DNA from: Dissulfurimicrobium hydrothermale
Lineage (GTDB): Bacteria; Desulfobacterota; Dissulfuribacteria; Dissulfuribacterales; Sh68
Reading direction: 5' to 3'
Assembly (NCBI RefSeq): GCF_022026155.1
Contig: NZ_CP085041.1
Coordinates: 466,306 to 530,305, forward strand
DNA length: 64,000 bases
The notes under the pieces are model-generated. The model was not told the DNA's origin, did not search any database, and saw only the letters and a program-made list of their open reading frames with translations. This document shows positions 2,154-17,168 of this stretch, in pieces (the stretch's first letter is position 1; each line of letters opens with the position of its first letter). The translations under genes and the position numbers were made by a program.

Positions 2154-2167
2154 TTGATTTTAATCAA
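2154..2167 (-). promoter_or_regulatory. FNR/CRP-type operator upstream of the cytochrome genes
   Basis: TTGATTTTAATCAA is a perfect match to the FNR consensus TTGAT-N4-ATCAA. It lies in an AT-rich 440-base gap between the decaheme gene start (1905) and the tRNA. A TACGAT hexamer on the minus strand (2132-2137) could be a -10 element, putting the site near position -36. The regulator is inferred from the motif only. The rest of 1906-2306 holds no gene that I can support. Confidence 0.6.
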
Positions 2168-2306
2168 TATCAAAGACAAATCTTTTGTTAAGAAAAATTT
2201 CAAAGAATAGATTAATTTCATTTTGTAACAAAATAACTATGTTATGTCACAATTTTATTGTGCAAATGATCAAATGCTATAAAAACGAGATGCCATAAGG
2301 GAAGGG

Positions 2307-2335
2307 TTGCAACGGGCAGGTATTTCAATTATATA
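2307..2335 (+). promoter_or_regulatory. Sigma70-type promoter of tRNA-Arg
   Basis: TTGCAA (2307-2312) and TATATA (2330-2335) are separated by exactly 17 bases. The -10 element ends 11 bases before the first base of the tRNA, a normal spacing for a stable RNA promoter. Confidence 0.7.
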
Positions 2336-2346
2336 TAACCCACTTG

Positions 2347-2423
<77 letters not shown>

Positions 2424-2454
2424 ATGATAACCAAAAAACGTCTGATAACCAAAA

Positions 2455-2486
2455 ACGCCCGACCTATTTAGGGTCGGGCGTTTTTT
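2455..2486 (+). terminator. Rho-independent terminator after tRNA-Arg
   Basis: Stem ACGCCCGACC (2455-2464) pairs with GGTCGGGCGT (2472-2481), and the T run (2481-2486) begins at the last stem base. An A run sits on the 5' side, so it could work in both directions. It lies 31 bases downstream of the tRNA. Confidence 0.9.
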
Positions 2487-2487
2487 A

Positions 2488-2606
2488 AATGATGATCTCG
2501 TAAAAAAGTTATTGACATGAGATGGCTAAGCAAAAATCGTCAATGTAAGGCGCACAGACCTGTACCCCGCAGTTGGACTTTTTGCTATGCCATCAACGAT
2601 GATCTA
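2488..2606 (+). repeat. Intergenic repeat, copy A (shortened)
   Basis: The stretch containing ATGAGATGGCTAAGCAAAAA (2517-2536), followed by TCGTCAATGTAAGGCGC, closely matches the reverse complement of 5315-5472, which reads ATGAGATGGTTAAGTAAAAA at the equivalent place. Both copies end in a CTTTTT...CCATCAAC segment. Copy A lacks about 55 bases that are present in copy B. It is non-coding and lies between the tRNA terminator and the end of the NrfD-like gene. Confidence 0.65.
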
Positions 2607-2633
2607 ATAAATCTTGTCAGCCAAGCCCTTTTG

Positions 2634-3857
2634 TTAGTCGCCAACGCCAGCATTGGTACCTTGTGTCAGACTTGCAGCTTCCATAGCCCTTATTTTATAA
2701 AAGTGTTCCCAAATAAGAAAAGCAGTAATGACAAAAGATATGGCCCCAATAAATATCATATCTTCATGGAGGGATGGGGTGTAGGAGAAATATCTTGGCA
2801 AGTCAACGATATTGTACTGATGGAAAACCGGGATGAGTTGACCTACTACCACAAGGTCGTAAATCATCACAAAAGTGCCGACCAGGCAGACAAGACCTGC
2901 GGCGGCCAAGGCGGTTACATTTTTTGTCCTTGCAGCTGTTATGAGTGCGAGAGGCGCAAGGACCGCCAAGATAACTTCACCTATCCAAAAATTGCCCGCA
3001 TAGCTTCCTTTTAATAAAAGCATCATGGCATCTTGGTTTTCGGTCATGTTGAAGAGTCCTGAATATATCTTCCACCCGACAAAACCAGCCGTCAAAATAA
3101 GGAGTATCACGCTGATCTTTGCAATCATGGAGAGTGCATCTTGCATCCCGGCGTCGATAGGCTGTTTGTCAAGTTTGATGGCGGCCCAGTTGAAGAACAT
3201 GGTTGCGGAACACCCAAGGAGGGTGGCCTGGATGGCGAAATAGAGCGGCATATAGTTTTCGAGCCAAAATTCTCTTGATCCTATAACCGACATGTCTGCC
3301 TTCATGTTTAGATTTGCCGCCAGGCATGCGATGAGTGCCACGAGGCCGAACCTTGCTGCTGCCTTTCGTTTCCCAAGATGCAGCATAGTCAGATCCAGGG
3401 TCAGCAAAACAAAATATATGCTGTAGATGGTGCTTTTCCACCAGATATTTGATTCGGGATGGGGCGATAATACGCCATAAATAGGAACTCTCCAGGGATT
3501 TTCAAGCTCCAGAGAGATACTCATTAGTCCCCCGGCTATAGTTACAATCGCGAGAAAGATCGTCCTCTCAACAATCGGCTGGAATACCCTTATGCCGAAG
3601 ACCTGGCCGAGTGAGGCCACAATACAGAGTCCTGTTGACATGGATGCAAAGAATACATACGATGCTATGAGAAGTCCCCATGGGACCTCTCTTGTCGTGT
3701 TGAAGGTCTCACCATGTCCTAGTACCAGGGCATGAATCCCAAAAGATATGCCTATGGTGCTGAGGATTGCAAAACATGCGAGGAGGATGAGGTGCAAGGT
3801 GGATACTGTGTGGGCAGCGGCGTCGGTGTCTATGATTGCAGATCCGGGTTTTGTCAT
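2634..3857 (-). CDS. NrfD/PsrC-family integral membrane quinone-interacting subunit
   Basis: Membrane protein of 407 residues with about ten hydrophobic segments, of the NrfD/PsrC type that exchanges electrons between the quinone pool and an iron-sulfur partner in polysulfide, sulfite, nitrite or tetrathionate reductases. An AAAGGAG site precedes the ATG. NrfD genes normally sit beside a four-cluster ferredoxin and often a molybdopterin or multiheme subunit. No such partner is next to it here: downstream is a repeat and the tRNA, and upstream is the end of an IS256-type element starting 138 bases away. The substrate therefore cannot be assigned. The AT-rich 3858-3994 segment is the likely promoter region. 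Confidence 0.82.
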   Translation of the reverse strand: MTKPGSAIIDTDAAAHTVSTLHLILLACFAILSTIGISFGIHALVLGHGETFNTTREVPWGLLIASYVFFASMSTGLCIVASLGQVFGIRVFQPIVERTIFLAIVTIAGGLMSISLELENPWRVPIYGVLSPHPESNIWWKSTIYSIYFVLLTLDLTMLHLGKRKAAARFGLVALIACLAANLNMKADMSVIGSREFWLENYMPLYFAIQATLLGCSATMFFNWAAIKLDKQPIDAGMQDALSMIAKISVILLILTAGFVGWKIYSGLFNMTENQDAMMLLLKGSYAGNFWIGEVILAVLAPLALITAARTKNVTALAAAGLVCLVGTFVMIYDLVVVGQLIPVFHQYNIVDLPRYFSYTPSLHEDMIFIGAISFVITAFLIWEHFYKIRAMEAASLTQGTNAGVGD

Positions 3858-3994: not shown

Positions 3995-5303
3995 TGTAAA
4001 ATAATTTGTGTAAATGGCCATTCAGGGGTATGTCGATATCCCACCCTTTAAAAGGAGATCATTATGGCCATTGAAAAAGAACTGTTGGATCGTCTGTTTG
4101 TCGGCTACGACTGTAAAAGACCCGAAGAGCTGATCGGGGAAAACGGGTTGCTCAAGCAACTGACCAAGGCCCTTCTGGAAAGGGCGCTGCAGGCGGAAAT
4201 GGCTGTCCATCTGGGACACGAGAAACATGGTGCAATAGCCGTCAAAGGCGGAAATGCCCGTAATGGCAAATCCGTCAAGACCATCAAGGGTGAGTTTGGC
4301 AAGCTGCCGATCGATGTCCCTCGTGACCGCGACAGCAGCTTTGATCCGGTGATCATTCCGAAGGGGCAAACCCGCTTTTCCGGTTTTGATGACAAGATTA
4401 TTTCACTCTACACCCGGGGTATGACCACCAGGGAGATTCAGGGGCATCTGGAGGATATCTATGGTGTTGATGTCTCTCCCAGCCTGATTTCAGCGGTCAC
4501 TGACGCTGTTGCCGATGAGGTTAAAATCTGGCAGAATCGCCCTCTGGACACTGTTTACCCGATCATCTATAGGGACGCGATAATGGACATGTTATGAACA
4601 AGGCGGTCTATCTGGCTATCGGTATCACCATGGATGGGGTCAAGGATGTCCTGGGGATGTGGGTTGCGGAAAACGAAGGCGCCAAGTTCTGGTTGCAGGT
4701 AGTGACAGAGTTGAGAAATCGTGGGGTACAGGATATCTTTATTGCCTGTGTGGATGGCCTGAAGGGTTTCCCCGAGGCCATTGAGACGGTCTTTCCTCGC
4801 ACCCGGATACAGCTCTGCATTGTCCATATGGTGCGCAATTCCCTGAGATATGTCTCATGGAGACAGCGCAAAGAGGTAGCTGCGGACCTCAAGACCATCT
4901 ACCAGGCGACAACCGCCGAGCAGTCTGAGATGAATCTTACGGCCTTTGAGGAAAAATGGGATAAAACGCATCCGTCCATCGGCCAATCCTGGCGCAGGAA
5001 CTGGGAGCGCATTATCCCTTTTTTGCCTATCCGCCGGAGATACGCAAGGTGATATACACGACTAACGCTATAGAATCATTGAACATGTCGCTGCGCAAAG
5101 TTACTAAGAACCGGGGTTCGTTCCCCAATGACGAGGCTATGCTCAAACTGCTTTATCTGGCGCTGAACAATATCGCCAGGAAATGGACTATGCCAATCAG
5201 AGACTGGAAGGCCGCATTGAACCGCTTTTCCATCTTATTTGGTGACAGAATGCCTGCTTATTGAATATGAAAAAACAAGACCGTTTACACAAAATTATTT
5301 ACA
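3995..5303. mobile_element. IS256-family insertion sequence, degenerate
   Basis: The element is bounded by imperfect 23-base terminal inverted repeats: left 3995-4017 (TGTAAAATAATTTGTGTAAA then TGG) and right 5281-5303, whose reverse complement matches at 19 of 23 positions. It encloses one Mutator/IS256-type transposase region broken into three frames. I see no clear target-site duplication just outside the repeats. With a shifted transposase it is unlikely to move by itself. It lies upstream of the NrfD-like gene and next to copy B of the intergenic repeat. Confidence 0.85.
4064..5264 (+). pseudogene. IS256-family (Mutator-type) transposase, two frame disruptions
   Basis: Three consecutive open stretches (4064-4597, 4594-5052, 5049-5264) together spell an IS256-type transposase of about 400 residues. 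An AAAGGAG site precedes the ATG. The first ends YPIIYRDAIMDML with the first catalytic aspartate. The second starts at NKAVYLAIG and carries the second aspartate in CVDGLKGFP. The third carries the terminal glutamate in [10 protein letters not shown]. At the first junction roughly 20-30 bases of the family sequence appear to be missing. At the second, a run of six T (5019-5024) is one base short of the frame reading [12 protein letters not shown]. The family is not known for programmed frameshifting at these points, so decay is the simplest reading. Confidence 0.88.
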
Positions 5304-9375: not shown

Positions 9376-10808
9376 TTATAAGGAGGCTGAAACGACATCA
9401 AACAGCATGTCAGGAGGGGTTGTCATGAGTTTAAGAAGGAGTTCTTCTTTTAATCTTTTCAGCCTGGCTCCTTCTTCTCTTGTGATTTTGCCTGCCTGCG
9501 CCTTGTTTTTTAATTCAAAAAATTCATCTCCACCAAAGATATCTTTTTTTGTCCGTACCGTTATAAATCTGCCGGTTGCCCTGTCAATAAAAGAGAATGT
9601 AGGGGTAATCTCTGTCATGCCTCTGTAGGATTGTCCTATATAGGCTACGTTGTCAACACCGGCAAGCCAGTCAAACAGCTCTTTGTGTTCCGCCTCCGGC
9701 GGGAACATCGATACAACAAACAGGTCGCTCGGGTTCACCACGGTATCCCCCCATAATTTGGCAAGGCCGTAGCTGGCCGCGCGCCATGCCATAATCCGGC
9801 CAGGGCATATTTCACCTGAAATCTCATAGACCCTGTCCAGGGAAAACTCAACAATTCTCCCGTTTTTCAATATCAATGGTGGCATCCAGAGGCTATTCGC
9901 TGCCCTATAGACCACCATCTTTGTCAAGGCCTTTTTGTCAAAGGTAATGAGGGATCGTTTGCCTTTCTCCGGGTAGCGATACATGTTTTCAACAGGTTTG
10001 AGGATCGATGGTATCTTGCTCCCGGTAAAATAGCCCTCACTCAGCATCACAGGTATCACATACGGTATCTTACCCTCGTTAAATATGGCGTGATAAACAA
10101 CATCGCCAAGCTGAGGATCAGCCTTTTCGAAGAGATAGCCATGCCTTATGTCATCTCTTTCAAAACCCCATCCCTGGGCGCTTAGCGTCCTGTATAAGCG
10201 CCCCTCCAGGGAATTTGTTGCCCGCTCCCAGCCTTCCATACCTTCAGGGGTATCGCTTCCATGCATTGCTAAAATAGCGGTCTTTCGAGAAAATATATTT
10301 GTAAAACCAGTGGTTGCGTCCAACATTGCCACAATCTGTCCGGCCAGGGTCTCAACCAGGAATGGGTTGTCGTCAATAGCCCGCGTGAGCTCAACTTCAC
10401 CGGCGGGATCGGCCTTTACAAGGTTTTCTCCACCTGGAGGGGTGTCCTTTAAACCGAGTATATATCTTATCTCTTCGATATGATTGGAATAAGAGGAGAT
10501 AAACAAGGGCACCGCTATGATACGGTTTACGCCCCGGCTGTTTAGTTCATCCACCGCCCCTGGGATGTCGGGTTTTGTGGCCTCCAGATAACCAAGGGCC
10601 ACCGGGCATGAAAACCTCTTCTTTAATTCTTCCGCCAGCGCTGAAACAGGGCCTGTCCATGTGGGATCGTCTGTCCCATGTGCTATAACAAGTATCCCGG
10701 GGCCCCTTTCAGTCTCCGCTCTTGCTGCAACAACAAAAGGAATAAAAATGGATAAAGCAATGGTCAGAATAAGACTGAATATTCTGGTTTTTTTAGAAGA
10801 CCTGTCAT
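9376..10808 (-). CDS. Exported CbiX-like chelatase with FmdE-like C-terminal domain (frameshift near the start)
   Basis: The first part is a CbiX/CbiK-type tetrapyrrole metal chelatase domain: ILVIAHGTDD, then PLFISSYSNHIEEI, the two conserved histidines. A second ferrochelatase-like half follows from AILAMHGSD. The last 170 or so residues contain SGEICPGRIMAWRA and resemble the FmdE domain of formylmethanofuran dehydrogenase. A strong GAGGAGG site precedes the ATG at 10808, but that frame stops after 14 codons. Adding one base to the seven-A run (10788-10794) joins it to the chelatase through a classic signal peptide ending VVAARA, so the protein is likely periplasmic. Without it, only a GTG at 10602 is available and the first histidine is lost. 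Substrate and function are inferred. A periplasmic cobaltochelatase is known in Desulfovibrio. Confidence 0.68.
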
Positions 10809-10919: not shown

Positions 10920-11300
10920 TTAGTCACCATGTTGCCCTGCATGCGCCTCTTCGGTAGGTGCCGACAGGGGTGGGCCGAGCCTGTCTTCTCTGATCGCCTG
11001 CAAGACGTCCTTTATACCTATGCGTGGACCTTGATATATCTTGACCCCCTTTTTGTTGAGAAGCTCAAAGGGTTTTGGCCCGATAAGGTCGGTTACAAGG
11101 GCGTTTACCCCGGAATCGACAAGGATCTCCGCCGCCTTTACCCCGCGCCCTGTGGTCAGGGCCCGAGCCTGGTTTTCCCTTGCGCCCAAGACACCCGTGG
11201 CGGTGTCATAGACGAGAAAGTGGGTTGCTGTTGCAAAATGACGGGAAAAGACCGCGCCTTCATCCATGCCCATGGCCGTGATCGCTATCTTACCATTCAT
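10920..11300 (-). CDS. NifX/NafY-type dinitrogenase iron-molybdenum cofactor domain protein
   Basis: A 126-residue protein of the small NifX/NifB-C-terminal (iron-molybdenum cofactor binding) fold: MNGKIAITAMG, then SRHFATATHFLVYD and a VDALVTD-like segment reading VNALVTDLIGPKPFELL. Such proteins bind iron-sulfur or molybdenum clusters. Many exist outside nitrogen fixation, and no nif genes are nearby. The ATG at 11300 is chosen because AGGAG precedes it by a good distance. A longer frame upstream overlaps another small reading frame. The C-terminus is rich in histidine, alanine and glycine (EEAHAGQHGD). Neighbours include a chelatase-like protein and iron uptake genes, so a metal role is plausible. 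Confidence 0.8.
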   Translation of the reverse strand: MNGKIAITAMGMDEGAVFSRHFATATHFLVYDTATGVLGARENQARALTTGRGVKAAEILVDSGVNALVTDLIGPKPFELLNKKGVKIYQGPRIGIKDVLQAIREDRLGPPLSAPTEEAHAGQHGD

Positions 11301-11494: not shown

Positions 11495-12853
11495 CTAAAA
11501 CTTTACGCCGGTCTCAACAGCGAACATGTATTTGTCGTCCTGCAGCCTGCCCTTGTCGTCTGAAAAGCCGTTGTCGGCATGGACGTAGGAGAGTTCGCCC
11601 CTTAAAAATACATTGCATGTGAGGTTGTAGGTGGGGGTGAATGTGACCGCATAGACGTCCTCCGCATCTGGGCTGTCAAGGTATATCCTGCTCTCCCCCT
11701 GATGGATATACTCAAGGCGGAGCGGGAATGAGAGCCTTTCAAGGGATGGGACTATGTAGAGGCTGGCGCCGATGGATGAGTCGTCCTTGAAGTATTTGTC
11801 CACCCTGCTGCTCCACCTCCAGTAGTCTCCGTTTACTGCCAGATACAGGCTTTTGAGGCCGTACAGGTCATCTATGGTATGGTCAATAACAATGCCCGTA
11901 AGGTGCCTGAGATCGTTCAGGTGGTAGTGGTATAGGCTCAGCCCCAGGCCGTTTACAGAGCCGTTTACGCCTACCTCCCACGAGCTTGAATCCTGTGCGC
12001 CGAGGCCCATTGGCTCGCCGTATTCATTGAGATAGACATCGTCCGTGCGGTATTCGTCATCATCGAGCCTGTGCTTGAACATCGCGCCGCAGAGCTTCAG
12101 GTCTTCGCCAAAGGCATATGTCACCCTTGCGCCCATTGCATTATAGGGCTGCTGGGAGGCAAGCGCCCCTACAGTGACGTTTGGATTTTGAAAGGTATAG
12201 GTGCTCCCATAGCCTGAGTTGGGTTTTAAGAGACCTGTCTCTACGGAAAGGCCCTCCAGAGACCTTATGGGCTTCAGGTTTATCGAGGCGTATTCAATGC
12301 GGAAGTCCGGGGTCGTGTCATTGGGTGCATCAAAGACAGACGGGGTCGTAACGCCTCCAAGTCCGACGTTAAAACCAAGAAGCCCCCCTTCCATCTCGGA
12401 CGAGAGGTCCAAAAGGAGGTTTGACAGGACGAAGTTGCTGCTCTTGTTACCTGGCCCCTCGTTTGTTGTAGAGAACCAGCCGCCGCTCACACCGCCTGTG
12501 ATATTGAGGTTGTCCAGGTATGGGCTGACCAGCTTTACAATCTTTTTCTTTTCCCCTTCTTTCTCGGCGGCCCCTTCTTTTTCTCTGAGCTCTTCCTTTA
12601 CCGTCTCCTGCCCCTCGCCCGCATCCTTTGCAGCAAGCCTTTCCTCAAGCTCCTGGACCCTTGTCTTCAAGGCGTCGAGGTCCTTTACCTTGGCCCTCAG
12701 CTCTTCAAGTTCTTTTCGTATTTCCTTGTCTTCAGTGTCCGCGCATACTATCCCGGCGGGCAAAAAGGTTAATAAAAACAGGATGGCTGTTATAAAAATC
12801 CATGCGCCCTCTCCTCCAAAACCATGCCTGAACAGATTTAAATTCCGTCCCAT
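11495..12853 (-). CDS. Outer-membrane porin-like beta-barrel with N-terminal coiled coil
   Basis: The 452-residue protein has a signal peptide (ILFLLTFLPAGIVCAD), then a coiled coil of about 60 residues rich in E, K and L (ELEELRAKVKDLDALKTRVQ), then a barrel with alternating aromatic and small residues, ending in phenylalanine (FAVETGVKF) as outer-membrane proteins do. It resembles the beta-barrel porin-2 (OmpL-like) group found in Desulfobacterota. The coiled coil probably spans the periplasm towards peptidoglycan, as in OmpA/S-layer-type porins. The ATG at 12853 is chosen for its GAGGAGG site. A longer frame starting upstream lacks one. The transported substrate is unknown. Confidence 0.75.
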   Translation of the reverse strand: MGRNLNLFRHGFGGEGAWIFITAILFLLTFLPAGIVCADTEDKEIRKELEELRAKVKDLDALKTRVQELEERLAAKDAGEGQETVKEELREKEGAAEKEGEKKKIVKLVSPYLDNLNITGGVSGGWFSTTNEGPGNKSSNFVLSNLLLDLSSEMEGGLLGFNVGLGGVTTPSVFDAPNDTTPDFRIEYASINLKPIRSLEGLSVETGLLKPNSGYGSTYTFQNPNVTVGALASQQPYNAMGARVTYAFGEDLKLCGAMFKHRLDDDEYRTDDVYLNEYGEPMGLGAQDSSSWEVGVNGSVNGLGLSLYHYHLNDLRHLTGIVIDHTIDDLYGLKSLYLAVNGDYWRWSSRVDKYFKDDSSIGASLYIVPSLERLSFPLRLEYIHQGESRIYLDSPDAEDVYAVTFTPTYNLTCNVFLRGELSYVHADNGFSDDKGRLQDDKYMFAVETGVKF

Positions 12854-13273: not shown

Positions 13274-13875
13274 CTAGTGGTCTGTAAGCGTAAAACCCCG
13301 AATCCAACCTATAACCTTGTCTTTTATTGCAAGGAGTGCCGCTGTGCATATAGGGTCCAGCTGGCTCCCGGAGAGCAGTGCGATCTCATCGAACGCCTTC
13401 TCCGGCGACATTGCCTTTCTATACGGCCTGTCTTGTATCATTGCCGAAAAGGTGTCGGCTACAGAGAGGATCCTGGCCCCGATCGGGATTTCGTTGCCCC
13501 TCAGGCCGGCTGGATAACCACCTCCGTCATATCTTTTGTGGTGGTGAAGCACCATGTCTTTGATGCCCCCTTTTTCTTTGAAACAACTCACCGCACCTAT
13601 GATGGCGGCCCCTGTTTCAGGGTGTCTTTTTATGTATTGCCACTCCTCTTCGGTCAATCTCTCTTTTTTAGAGAGGATATGGTCAGGGACCCCAATCTTG
13701 CCGATGTCTGCAGGTGGCCTGCTATGTGGATCACATCGGCTTGCTGGGCTGTAAAACCTATCTTTAAGGCTATCATGTACCCTATCACCGCTACATGCTG
13801 CGAATGGTCATAGGTATGTCTGTCTTTAGCGTCTATGGCGTTTCCAAGCGCCTCGGCGAATTGATGTAGACTCAC
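13274..13875 (-). pseudogene. HD-GYP domain protein, frameshifted at the HD dyad
   Basis: Two overlapping frames (13654-13875 and 13274-13657) form one HD-GYP domain of about 200 residues, a fold that hydrolyses cyclic di-GMP. The N-terminal part has TYDHSQHVAVIGY. The C-terminal part has EEEWQYIKRHPETGA, HHKRYDGGGYP (the GYP motif) and ARILSVADTFSAM. Between them the reading GHL-(H)DIGKIGVPD needs one extra base near 13717, exactly where the catalytic histidine codon should be. This is not a homopolymer. As sequenced, the product would lack the HD metal site. The only start is a GTG at 13875, just after a TGA and a stem-loop. The protein has no sensor domain. Confidence 0.75.
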
Positions 13876-13957: not shown

Positions 13958-16072
13958 TCACGATATGAACAACCTTCCGCCCCAATAGACGATGAAAGAG
14001 ACGACCCAGGCCAGGGCCAGCTCATAACCGATCATAAACAGCGGCCAGCGCCAGGAGTTTGTCTCGCGCCTTACGACCGCCACCGCGGCCATGCACGGGA
14101 CATAGGTCAGCACGAACACCATCAGGGTGTAGGCGACCAGCGGGCTGTAAAACGGGTCTTTTTGAAGCGCCGTCTTGAGATCGTCCGCGCCCTCCTCTCC
14201 TGCGCCTACGCTGTAAAGGGTTCCGAGGGTGGCCACCACCACCTCCTTCGCGCCAAAGCCTGCAAACAGCGCCGTGCCTATCTTCCAATCGCCTAGACCT
14301 ATGGGCTGCAGGAAAAAGGCGACCGCGTGCCCGATCCGGCCTGCAAGGCTCTGCTCAAGCTTCTTTTCAGCGAGCTCGTTTTCAAGGGCCCTGGTTTCGT
14401 TTTTGTCATGGGCCGCCTCGATCATGGTCTTATAGGTCTCCTCAAGCTGGGGATTTGCAGGGAAGCTTGAGAGAAACCACATCACTATCGATATGGCGAG
14501 GATGATGGTCCCAGCCTTTTTTATGTACAGCCATGCCCTCTCACACATGTGGATCAATACCCCCTTGAGCGTGGGCATACGGTAGGGCGGAAGCTCCATC
14601 ACAAACGGCGTGGCCGCGCCGGGCAGGAGATATTTCTTGAATATCTTCGCCATGGCTATCGCAAGGACAACGCCGAGGACATAGATGGAAAAGATGACGT
14701 GACCTGCGACATGCGGGGCGAAAAACGCCCCGGCGAGGAGCGTATAGACTGGAAGCCTTGCGCTGCAGCTCATGAGCGGGTTCACGAGGATGGTCACGAT
14801 GCGGTCACGCTCGTTTTCAATGGTGCGGGTACCCATGATGGCAGGGATGTTGCAGCCGAAACCGATGAGCATAGGGATGAAGCTCTTGCCGTGCAGGCCG
14901 ATCCTGTGCATCAGACGGTCCATGATGAAGGCCACCCTGGCCATGTAGCCTGAGTCCTCAAGTACGGCAATGGCAAGAAACAGCATGAGGACGTTCGGGA
15001 CAAAGACCAGCACGCCGCCTGCGCCTGCAATGACGCCGTCGGTTATAAGGGATCTCAGATACCCTTCGGGCAGGATTGCGCCCACAAGGGTGGAAAGCCA
15101 ATTGAACCCGCCTTCGATCCACTCCCCGGGCGGCCCGCCAAGGGTGAATGTGAGCTGAAAGACGAGCCACAGGAGCCCCAGAAAGATCGGGATCCCGAGC
15201 ACGCGGTTTGTAAGCACCGCATCTATCCTGTCGGATATCGTATGGCGTATCTCGATGGTGGAGCGCACCGCCTCGCGGCATGCGCCAGAGATGAAGCCAT
15301 ACCTTTGGCCGGCGATGGCGGTCTCTGGGTGCTCTCCTGTCAATTTTTCAATACGCGCCGCGCCTTCCCTGACTATCCTGTCTAACTCAGGGGATCCGAC
15401 CTTCTTTTGCACGTTTTTGTCGTTTTCCAAGAGTTTTACGGCCAGCCACCTTGCACCGTATCTACCTGCAACCCCCTGGAGCGCAGGGTCCTTTTCGATG
15501 AGCGTCTGTATCCTCTCGATCTCCCCCTCGATCTCGGGCCCATAGTCCACGACCTTGTCGCGCCTGGGTCCTTTTGAGCCGGCCATGGATACGGCCACGT
15601 CCAAAAGCTGTTCTATCCCCGCCCCTTTATTGCCGATTGTCTGGACGATAGGGGCGTCAAGGAGCCTTGAGAGCCTTTCAATATCAAATTCATACCCGCG
15701 CTCCCTGGCTATGTCGCTCATGTTGAAGGCCAGGACAAGCGGAGCGCCAAGCTCCATGATCTCCACGGCAAGATAGAGATTTCTCTCCAGATTGGAGGCG
15801 TCGATTATATCCACCACCACATCCGGCCGTTCATCAATTATCGCGTCCCTGGCCACCACCTCATCCTCTGAATAGGCCGTAAGGCTGTAGGTACCCGGGA
15901 GGTCGATGACCTTGATCTCATGACCACCATGCCGGCAAAGACCTTCTTTACGCTCAACGGTCACGCCCGGATAGTTTCCGACATGCTGCCTAGCGCCCGT
16001 CAGGTTGTTAAAAATGGTAGTCTTTCCTGAATTTGGATTGCCCGCAAGGGCTACTGTAATCTTCGGTCCCAT
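13958..16072 (-). CDS. feoB: Ferrous iron transport protein B
   Basis: A 704-residue inner-membrane Fe(II) transporter. The N-terminal GTPase domain shows GNPNSGKTTIFNNLTG (G1), the switch segment GNYPGVTVERKEG, DLPGTYSLTAYS (G3) and FNMSD (G4). Two Gate-type membrane halves follow, with IGFGCNIPAIMGTR and SCSARLPVYTLLAG, the cysteines of which are conserved in FeoB. Length is close to the family norm. The last gene of a regulator-feoA-feoB operon, 89 bases after feoA. Regulation by the DtxR-type protein encoded first in the operon is likely. Confidence 0.97.
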   Translation of the reverse strand: MGPKITVALAGNPNSGKTTIFNNLTGARQHVGNYPGVTVERKEGLCRHGGHEIKVIDLPGTYSLTAYSEDEVVARDAIIDERPDVVVDIIDASNLERNLYLAVEIMELGAPLVLAFNMSDIARERGYEFDIERLSRLLDAPIVQTIGNKGAGIEQLLDVAVSMAGSKGPRRDKVVDYGPEIEGEIERIQTLIEKDPALQGVAGRYGARWLAVKLLENDKNVQKKVGSPELDRIVREGAARIEKLTGEHPETAIAGQRYGFISGACREAVRSTIEIRHTISDRIDAVLTNRVLGIPIFLGLLWLVFQLTFTLGGPPGEWIEGGFNWLSTLVGAILPEGYLRSLITDGVIAGAGGVLVFVPNVLMLFLAIAVLEDSGYMARVAFIMDRLMHRIGLHGKSFIPMLIGFGCNIPAIMGTRTIENERDRIVTILVNPLMSCSARLPVYTLLAGAFFAPHVAGHVIFSIYVLGVVLAIAMAKIFKKYLLPGAATPFVMELPPYRMPTLKGVLIHMCERAWLYIKKAGTIILAISIVMWFLSSFPANPQLEETYKTMIEAAHDKNETRALENELAEKKLEQSLAGRIGHAVAFFLQPIGLGDWKIGTALFAGFGAKEVVVATLGTLYSVGAGEEGADDLKTALQKDPFYSPLVAYTLMVFVLTYVPCMAAVAVVRRETNSWRWPLFMIGYELALAWVVSFIVYWGGRLFIS

Positions 16073-16161: not shown

Positions 16162-16377
16162 TTATCTAACTATAATCTTCTGTGCCATCCCGCGGCCCAG
16201 CATCAACCTAGATCCATTAAGTCCTATTACTACCGGCCCATCCGCGAGGTTTTGTATCATCTCGATCTCGACACCCGGTATGAGTCCGAGGACCGACAAC
16301 CGACTTCTTAGCTCGCAGCCGGCCTTGACCCCTAAGAGTCGCACCCTTTTGCCATTTTCAACCATTGCAAGCGACAT
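16162..16377 (-). CDS. feoA: Ferrous iron transport protein A
   Basis: A 71-residue SH3-like protein of the FeoA family, which associates with FeoB at the inner face of the membrane. Family features include a LSVLGLIPGVEIEM segment and the closing LGRGMAQKIIV. An AGGAAAG site precedes the ATG. It sits between the DtxR-type gene and feoB on the same strand. The regulator carries its own second FeoA-like domain. Confidence 0.92.
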   Translation of the reverse strand: MSLAMVENGKRVRLLGVKAGCELRSRLSVLGLIPGVEIEMIQNLADGPVVIGLNGSRLMLGRGMAQKIIVR

Positions 16378-16406: not shown

Positions 16407-17168
16407 TTATTCGATCAATTCCACTTCTATCGATTCCGCGTCGTCTTTACGAAGGGAGAGGTGGTATCCCTTGACCTTGACGTCCACCGGATCGCCCAGC
16501 GGGGCAACGCGTTCGACCTCTACCAGAGAGCCAGGGGTTATTCCCATTGCCGCAATCCGTTTGTTTGTCTCACCACGGCCCCTGATCTTTATGACCCTGC
16601 CTTTCTGGCCAGGTTTCAATGCCTTTAGATTGGTATTGGCCATCGATTTTTTACCCCCTTGTTGTATATGTTTTTTTACAGCCTCCAGGGTCGTGGAGAT
16701 ACACTCTTCACAGTTTTCGTGGGAGCGGCCCTGGTCGCAGTAATAGCCAAATCCGGCAAGCCATTTTGTCCCTCCCCTGGGGCATGTCTCAACAAACTCT
16801 ATAAACTGGCTCAGCCGTTCCAGGATGACCTTTGGGATCGCGTGTTCCATCTGGCAGGCGGTTTTGTCGGCGATCCCATAGTCCACTGCCAAGACGTTTA
16901 CAAAGAAGTCCCGCAGGACTTCATGGCGTCGTACTATATCCTTTGCGACGGCCTTGCCGCTCTGGGTGAGCGTGACCAGGTCATGTGGGGCATAGTTGAT
17001 CAGCCCCTTGTCTGCCAGGGCACGAAGTGCACCAGTAACGGATGAGTTGCCGACCTTGAGCCGTCTGGCGATGTCTTTGGGTCTGGCCGCCTGTTTTTCT
17101 GTAATGATGTGAAAAATGCCTTCCAGATAGTCTTCAAGGCTTGCGGTCAAGGTGTCTGCGGCGATCAT
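16407..17168 (-). CDS. DtxR/IdeR/MntR-family metal-dependent repressor with C-terminal FeoA domain
   Basis: A 253-residue regulator. Residues of roughly 8-70 form the winged helix (ARPKDIARRLKVGNSSVTG). About 75-145 form the metal-binding dimerisation domain with ACQMEHAIP, matching the ligand motif of DtxR. From about 180 a FeoA/SH3-like domain follows (LKPGQKGRVIKIRGRG), as in IdeR-type proteins. Between them is a cysteine-rich stretch: TCPRGG, GYYC, NCEEC. These four cysteines could bind zinc or an iron-sulfur cluster, which is inference. It heads the feoA-feoB operon and has a good promoter, so it probably regulates iron uptake and itself. Confidence 0.88.
   Translation of the reverse strand: MIAADTLTASLEDYLEGIFHIITEKQAARPKDIARRLKVGNSSVTGALRALADKGLINYAPHDLVTLTQSGKAVAKDIVRRHEVLRDFFVNVLAVDYGIADKTACQMEHAIPKVILERLSQFIEFVETCPRGGTKWLAGFGYYCDQGRSHENCEECISTTLEAVKKHIQQGGKKSMANTNLKALKPGQKGRVIKIRGRGETNKRIAAMGITPGSLVEVERVAPLGDPVDVKVKGYHLSLRKDDAESIEVELIE

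Follow-up and report, generated by a model that had tools for sequence, protein, structure and literature searches.

Does an exported protein that joins a class II chelatase to an FmdE-like domain, and whose gene lies at the end of a ferrous iron transport operon, take part in iron uptake, and how would it handle the iron? The question is raised by a gene of Dissulfurimicrobium hydrothermale Sh68, a thermophilic autotrophic sulfur disproportionator whose complete genome has been published (PMC8780430). The stretch analysed, hereafter the window, comprises 64,000 nucleotides and is part of a single contig of 2,025,450 bases. In it, the gene is laid out as follows.

9376-10808, minus strand: gene for the CbiX-CbiX-FmdE fusion; in the assembly its ATG, at 10808, lies in another frame than the 469-codon body (10785 to 9376)
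10788-10794, minus strand: A7 run (A_AAA_AAA; T7 on the forward strand) joining the start frame and the main frame; absent from eight relatives
10720-10785, minus strand: hydrophobic, signal-peptide-like segment in the main frame only (helix 2-22 in the AlphaFold model); the relatives' signal peptides are clean and in frame
10426-10704, minus strand: first CbiX half, residues ~28-120, with His36 (10678-10680), Glu68 (10582-10584) and His102 (10480-10482)
9886-10293, minus strand: second CbiX half, residues ~165-300, with His175 (10261-10263)
9379-9879, minus strand: FmdE-like domain, residues ~303-469, lacking the FHGHxC metal motif (it reads ISGEIC)

The ATG at 10808 has a strong ribosome-binding site (AGAGGAGGT) 7 nt upstream and reads MTGLLKKPEYSVLF followed by a stop (14 codons), and the main frame is open on the minus strand for 469 codons from 10785 to the stop at 9376 and contains no ATG, GTG or TTG before 10602. 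The reading frames and the ribosome-binding site agreed with the preliminary description both on the coordinates and on a junction of frames at the A7 run. The predicted signal peptide, found in the main frame and in the relatives, is here out of frame with the ATG unless the A7 run is bridged; export, which had been proposed earlier, receives support from relatives encoded in Feo operons, which have clean signal peptides and surface anchors. The internal GTG at 10602 was not accepted as the main start, as translation from it would omit both the signal peptide and His36. Conserved programmed -1 frameshifting at A_AAA_AAA was also rejected: the eight relatives have a clean in-frame start and lack the A7 run, which argues against a conserved signal and leaves such frameshifting possible in Sh68 only. 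No significant hairpin was found downstream of the run (z -0.7).

Two matches to CbiX (75.1 bits, cut-off 22) and one to FmdE (24.7 bits, cut-off 22.9; C-terminal half of the profile only, positions 68-133) were obtained with Pfam. Modelling with AlphaFold from 20 related sequences gave a mean pLDDT of 90.7 and a pTM of 0.87, and when the model was compared with the PDB using Foldseek the matches included SirB (TM by target 0.72-0.76), ferrochelatases, CfbA and the FmdE structures 2glz (TM 0.66) and 2gvi (TM 0.51). Given that a confident model matches both FmdE structures, the FmdE part is more than a chance similarity. The two-lobed fold together with the CbiX profile places the fusion among the class II chelatases by sequence and predicted fold, and a profile score above cut-off together with the FmdE core fold identifies its last third as FmdE-like, so that the two chelatase-like halves and FmdE-like domain first read from the sequence were borne out both by Pfam and by predicted fold. 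All chelatase matches in Pfam and Foldseek were of class II and none had the CobN/ChlH-type (class I, HmuS-type) fold. The curated nickelochelatase/cobaltochelatase models NF033198 and NF002090 (NCBIfam) gave 61.8 and 57.0 bits for the whole protein and did not reach their cut-off of 120.

The metal ligands of SirB are His10, Glu43 and His76, equivalent to His9, Glu42 and His75 of CfbA (PMC11301274). In a profile alignment to both proteins, His36 and Glu68 of the fusion aligned with SirB His10 and Glu43, and the column of SirB His76/CfbA His75 was occupied by Asn101, with the invariant His102 one position past it. The earlier statement that the chelatase histidines are present thus holds only in part, for His36 (with Glu68), the second histidine being shifted by one position, and given this displacement the chelatase chemistry may be altered or lost. 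His36, Glu68, His102 and His175 were invariant in 15/15 CbiX2 units of the fusion family, and Glu104-Glu105 is conserved beside His102. Two standalone relatives have kept His102 and a second His after it and have Asp at 68; in a third, the histidine sits at the canonical position 101. His175 stands where SirB has Arg134, a position at which a change to His raised nickel-chelatase activity (PMC11301274). Loops rich in His and Glu adjoin the chelatase cleft in three relatives (L026, L028 and L029). The metal site of FmdE consists of FHGHxC and a second Cys (PMC2954224). In the fusion the motif reads ISGEIC and the second Cys is missing, so that only 1/4 ligands is kept, and the site is not conserved across the family; one of three solved FmdE proteins likewise lacks two metal-site ligands (PMC2954224). 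The earlier reading of this domain as probably metal-binding is therefore not supported, the domain not being a canonical metal site, and because the cleft residues are invariant while the FmdE site is not conserved, the chelatase cleft is, judged from sequence conservation, the conserved functional centre of the protein.

The Sh68 operon runs in the order MntR-FeoA, FeoA, FeoB, broken HD, DUF2325, porin, NifX-like and fusion, with the following genes upstream of the fusion.

16407-17168, minus strand: MntR/DtxR-like regulator fused to FeoA, the first gene of the operon
16162-16377, minus strand: FeoA
13958-16072, minus strand: FeoB, ferrous iron transporter
13274-13875, minus strand: gene for an HD-domain protein, interrupted by the loss of one base; intact relatives adjoin the fusion in L023, L027 and L030
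12967-13260, minus strand: DUF2325 protein (PF10087), which recurs beside the fusion
11495-12853, minus strand: BBP2-type outer-membrane porin (PF07642; start uncertain), present in the sister operon too
10920-11300, minus strand: NifX-like protein (Nitro_FeMo-Co, PF02579), 55% identical to the protein preceding the Ammonifex fusion

The NifX-like, porin and Feo neighbours already pointed out were confirmed by Pfam, and the metal-related nature of the neighbourhood is supported and is strengthened by the Feo operons of the relatives. Porins associated with feoAB have been proposed to act in iron uptake in related bacteria (PMC545781). The DUF2325 gene and the broken HD gene of the same operon, as well as the displaced catalytic histidine, were not part of the preliminary description. 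The lesion in the HD gene falls within the HLHDIGKIG motif (CACCTGCA-GACATC) at a non-homopolymer site, through which the sister genus reads. A good sigma-70-like site was found at 17230-17202, just upstream of MntR-FeoA, in a promoter scan whose total count was at chance. No Fur box was found upstream of the operon, and the two overlapping matches, inside another gene, were at chance level. In the sister genus (L084, same family), the closest relative among the genomes compared, the same Feo operon is present, with FeoB 83% identical and without NifX and the fusion; because that operon lacks both genes, they were either gained in the Sh68 lineage or lost in the sister. A gene for an NAD(P)-disulfide oxidoreductase-like protein follows the porin in L084. 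Elsewhere in the window, a transposase-like gene at 4594-5264 (plus strand) is split into two overlapping frames (152 and 71 aa).

A search of 395 genomes of the same phylum gave one further full-length fusion (G077, 30% identity, signal peptide intact); 40 relatives of the Sh68 genome and the 45 remaining genomes of its class yielded none. When 84,980 genomes were scanned with a pattern, seven more fusions, at most 45% identical, came from Bacillota-type genomes and a permuted one from Desulfonema; in the class of Desulfofundulus, 8/113 genomes had the fusion, two of these being further tandem members. The same domain order was counted in P0002, L023-L028 and L030 (n = 8), with L067 and L068 as further tandem members and L029 (Desulfonema) as the permuted one. 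With its frameshift bridged for the signal peptide, the Sh68 protein shows the features that define the family, namely CbiX2 followed by an FmdE-like domain, the four invariant residues and linkage to iron uptake. The architectures were as follows.

Signal peptide-CbiX2-FmdE: Sh68 window and G077
CbiX2-FmdE-FmdE, then SLH repeats: Desulfofundulus and others
CbiX2-FmdE-FmdE, then an LPXTG-like anchor: Syntrophaceticus (anchor 17.2 bits, below the cut-off of 20)
Two tandem CbiX2-FmdE units and a Cu_amine_oxidN1 domain: Desulfotruncus
FmdE-like-ZinT-CbiX2: Desulfonema

A tree of the fusions contained two fully supported groups, one formed by the Sh68 protein and the Feo-linked Bacillota proteins and the other by G077 and the tandem proteins; branches were long, and the tree did not resolve placements inside either group, that of the Sh68 protein included. 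The 2010 structure paper on FmdE names fusions to molybdopterin-binding and UPF0066 domains, not to CbiX (PMC2954224). No description of a CbiX2-FmdE fusion was found in the open-access literature, subscription papers lying outside that scope, and the family in Bacillota and Desulfobacterota is apparently so far undescribed. One of the records (L025, JAIMBK010000007.1) is titled Armatimonadetes; its genome (G428) falls in the class of Desulfofundulus and its protein is close to those of that class, and the record is probably mislabelled. Standalone exported two-half CbiX proteins were seen beside CcsA/ResB cytochrome c assembly genes in L011 (94-1095, minus strand) and L013 (1447-2442, plus strand), and these are possibly an extracytoplasmic heme-handling factor of their own. 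In L010, two adjacent exported FmdE-like genes lack a chelatase domain (1378-2118 and 2158-3090, plus strand), one having the canonical FHGHxC and one not.

The feoB gene adjoins the fusion in 8/12 loci from two phyla (Sh68, Ammonifex, Desulfofundulus, Syntrophaceticus, Desulfonema, the SCADC genome, the HOT.MB2.58 genome and G077), with the L023 locus cut by a contig end. In Ammonifex the order is MntR-FeoA, FeoA, FeoB, DUF2325, NifX, fusion and HD. At a density of two feoB genes in 3 Mb, linkage by chance was put at ~1.3% per locus, or ~0.16 loci expected over 12 compared with the 8 observed; because the loci are interdependent, the formal probability of 5e-13 makes the linkage look stronger than it is. 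The tandem clade (L028, L067 and L068) had no Feo linkage. The L067 fusion adjoins a siderophore-type cluster (salicylate synthase/AMP ligase, thioesterase, AraC regulator and a 2281-residue protein), and the L028 fusion adjoins an FecCD permease and its binding protein. The shared theme of the neighbourhoods is iron uptake, not cobalamin synthesis. In two loci the feoB gene beside the fusion is itself split or shortened (L014, 6075-8582, minus strand; L030, 7742-8625, plus strand).

Among known systems, SirB/CbiX(L) of B. subtilis (5zt7-5zta) shares the two-lobed fold and has His10 and Glu43 at the places of His36 and Glu68, whereas the fusion is exported and carries FmdE, has its second catalytic His off by one and His175 in place of Arg134, and is linked to Feo rather than to siroheme genes. 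The periplasmic cobaltochelatase CbiK of Desulfovibrio vulgaris (2xvx, 2xvz) is an extracytoplasmic class II fold like the fusion (TM ~0.70) but comes from another superfamily branch (14% identity across the fold-based alignment) and has no FmdE domain. FetB/IhtB of Porphyromonas gingivalis (9b86), for which a reverse-ferrochelatase role has been proposed, is a surface or envelope protein with a chelatase fold (TM 0.70); identity over the fold alignment is, however, 10%, and the protein is not reported to have an FmdE domain or linkage to a Feo operon. A precedent for the way of working is given by HmuS/BtuS with FeoAB, in which iron is taken out of heme in an extracytoplasmic step and is then imported by Feo (PMC12583661, PMC6460266): in Bacteroides, iron leaves heme in the periplasm and FeoAB is needed (PMC6460266). 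HmuS, the Bacteroides dechelatase, is unrelated to the fusion (PMC12583661), HmuS/BtuS being membrane-anchored, having a large CobN-type class I fold and not being encoded in the feo operon. FmdE itself (PF02663; 2gvi, 2glz) has the fold of the last third of the fusion, with the Pfam score just above cut-off, but the fusion lacks the FHGHxC and Cys site as well as the zinc finger, is exported and is joined to a chelatase.

Taken with the linkage to feoB, the siderophore genes of L067 and the FecCD permease of L028, the signal peptides, the SLH and LPXTG-type anchors and the metal-recruitment domain ZinT of one member make it fairly likely that the fusion is an extracytoplasmic iron-acquisition factor working with Feo. 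The matches of the model to SirB, ferrochelatases, CbiK 2xvx and FetB, the four invariant residues, the His/Glu-rich loops, the exported CbiX2 relatives beside ResB/CcsA heme-handling genes and the HmuS precedent (PMC12583661) point the same way; the displaced His102, the tandem clade without Feo, the frameshift in the Sh68 copy, the absence of the gene from the sister genus and the lack of an obvious rich heme source for a chemolithoautotroph of a hydrothermal pond count against it. The protein would act outside the cytoplasmic membrane, where the cleft of His36, Glu68, His102 and His175 would either hold an iron tetrapyrrole (heme or one of its breakdown products) and allow Fe(II) to leave, or hold Fe(II) itself; the iron would be imported by FeoB from the same operon, and in this Gram-negative host the operon porin would pass iron or substrate across the outer membrane. 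The narrower reading, in which iron is released from a tetrapyrrole, is the most likely form of such handling but can be put forward only tentatively; its nearest functional precedents are the Bacteroides system and FetB/IhtB. The degenerate FmdE-like domain would probably be a dimerisation, ligand-binding or docking module and not a catalytic metal site.

On a rival account, the protein would be an extracytoplasmic Fe(II) chaperone or buffer that has kept the metal residues and lost the tetrapyrrole chemistry, capturing Fe(II) in competition with sulfide and handing it to FeoB, and the displaced His102 with Glu104-Glu105 alongside, the His/Glu-rich loops and the ZinT domain would fit this role, as would the way of life of several hosts, which are sulfate or sulfur metabolisers of sulfide-rich habitats. 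A simple metal binder would, however, have no need of the whole conserved two-lobed cleft with His175 facing from the second lobe, and we regard this account as rather unlikely. Extracytoplasmic insertion of Co or Fe into a tetrapyrrole, as by the periplasmic CbiK, appears improbable in spite of the fold match to that enzyme (2xvx/2xvz) and the finding that class II chelatases accept several metals for insertion and discriminate only weakly among them (PMC7689651): the neighbours are genes of iron uptake and not of cobalamin or heme synthesis, another CbiX-type chelatase gene is present elsewhere in the Sh68 genome, and metal-free sirohydrochlorin or porphyrin is not expected outside the membrane. 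Release of tetrapyrrole iron would fit the Feo context better than insertion.

Whatever the family does elsewhere, the Sh68 copy could be a pseudogene that a genuine one-base lesion in the signal peptide has deprived of export and so of its function, a serious possibility that falls a little short of probable. The textbook ribosome-binding site and ATG sit in the wrong frame, the main frame offers no other start before 10602, and the HD gene of the same operon is also broken, at a site where no homopolymer is present. The assembly was made from 50x Illumina and Nanopore reads, with 51 pseudogenes annotated (PMC8780430), which makes an error in the homopolymer less likely than it would be in a genome assembled only from long reads, and the frameshift may be a true lesion. 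On the other hand, the body of the gene has no further stop or frameshift and has kept every family-invariant residue, A_AAA_AAA, being correctly placed in register, is a slippery heptamer for a -1 shift that could allow some product, and an assembly error is possible. Given that the gene is interrupted as assembled, this copy is possibly non-functional; its function may have been lost, or its expression may need slippage at the A7 run.

Class II chelatases and FmdE were already known; what is apparently new is their occurrence in an exported fusion linked to Feo. Anaerobes import ferrous iron mainly through Feo, and little is known of the delivery of iron to this importer at the outer face of the membrane. 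An extracytoplasmic chelatase-fold partner that is physically linked to feoAB in two phyla is a direct candidate for such delivery. At the strength of a tentative proposal, these proteins would lie at the surface or in the periplasm, strip the metal from heme or related tetrapyrroles outside the cell and provide Fe(II) to the adjacent FeoB, an anaerobic route to tetrapyrrole iron, unrelated to HmuS, in environmental, often sulfide-exposed bacteria. If this is true, the idea of a dechelatase working together with Feo, drawn from gut Bacteroidota, would apply to environmental bacteria as well, with an enzyme of unrelated fold.
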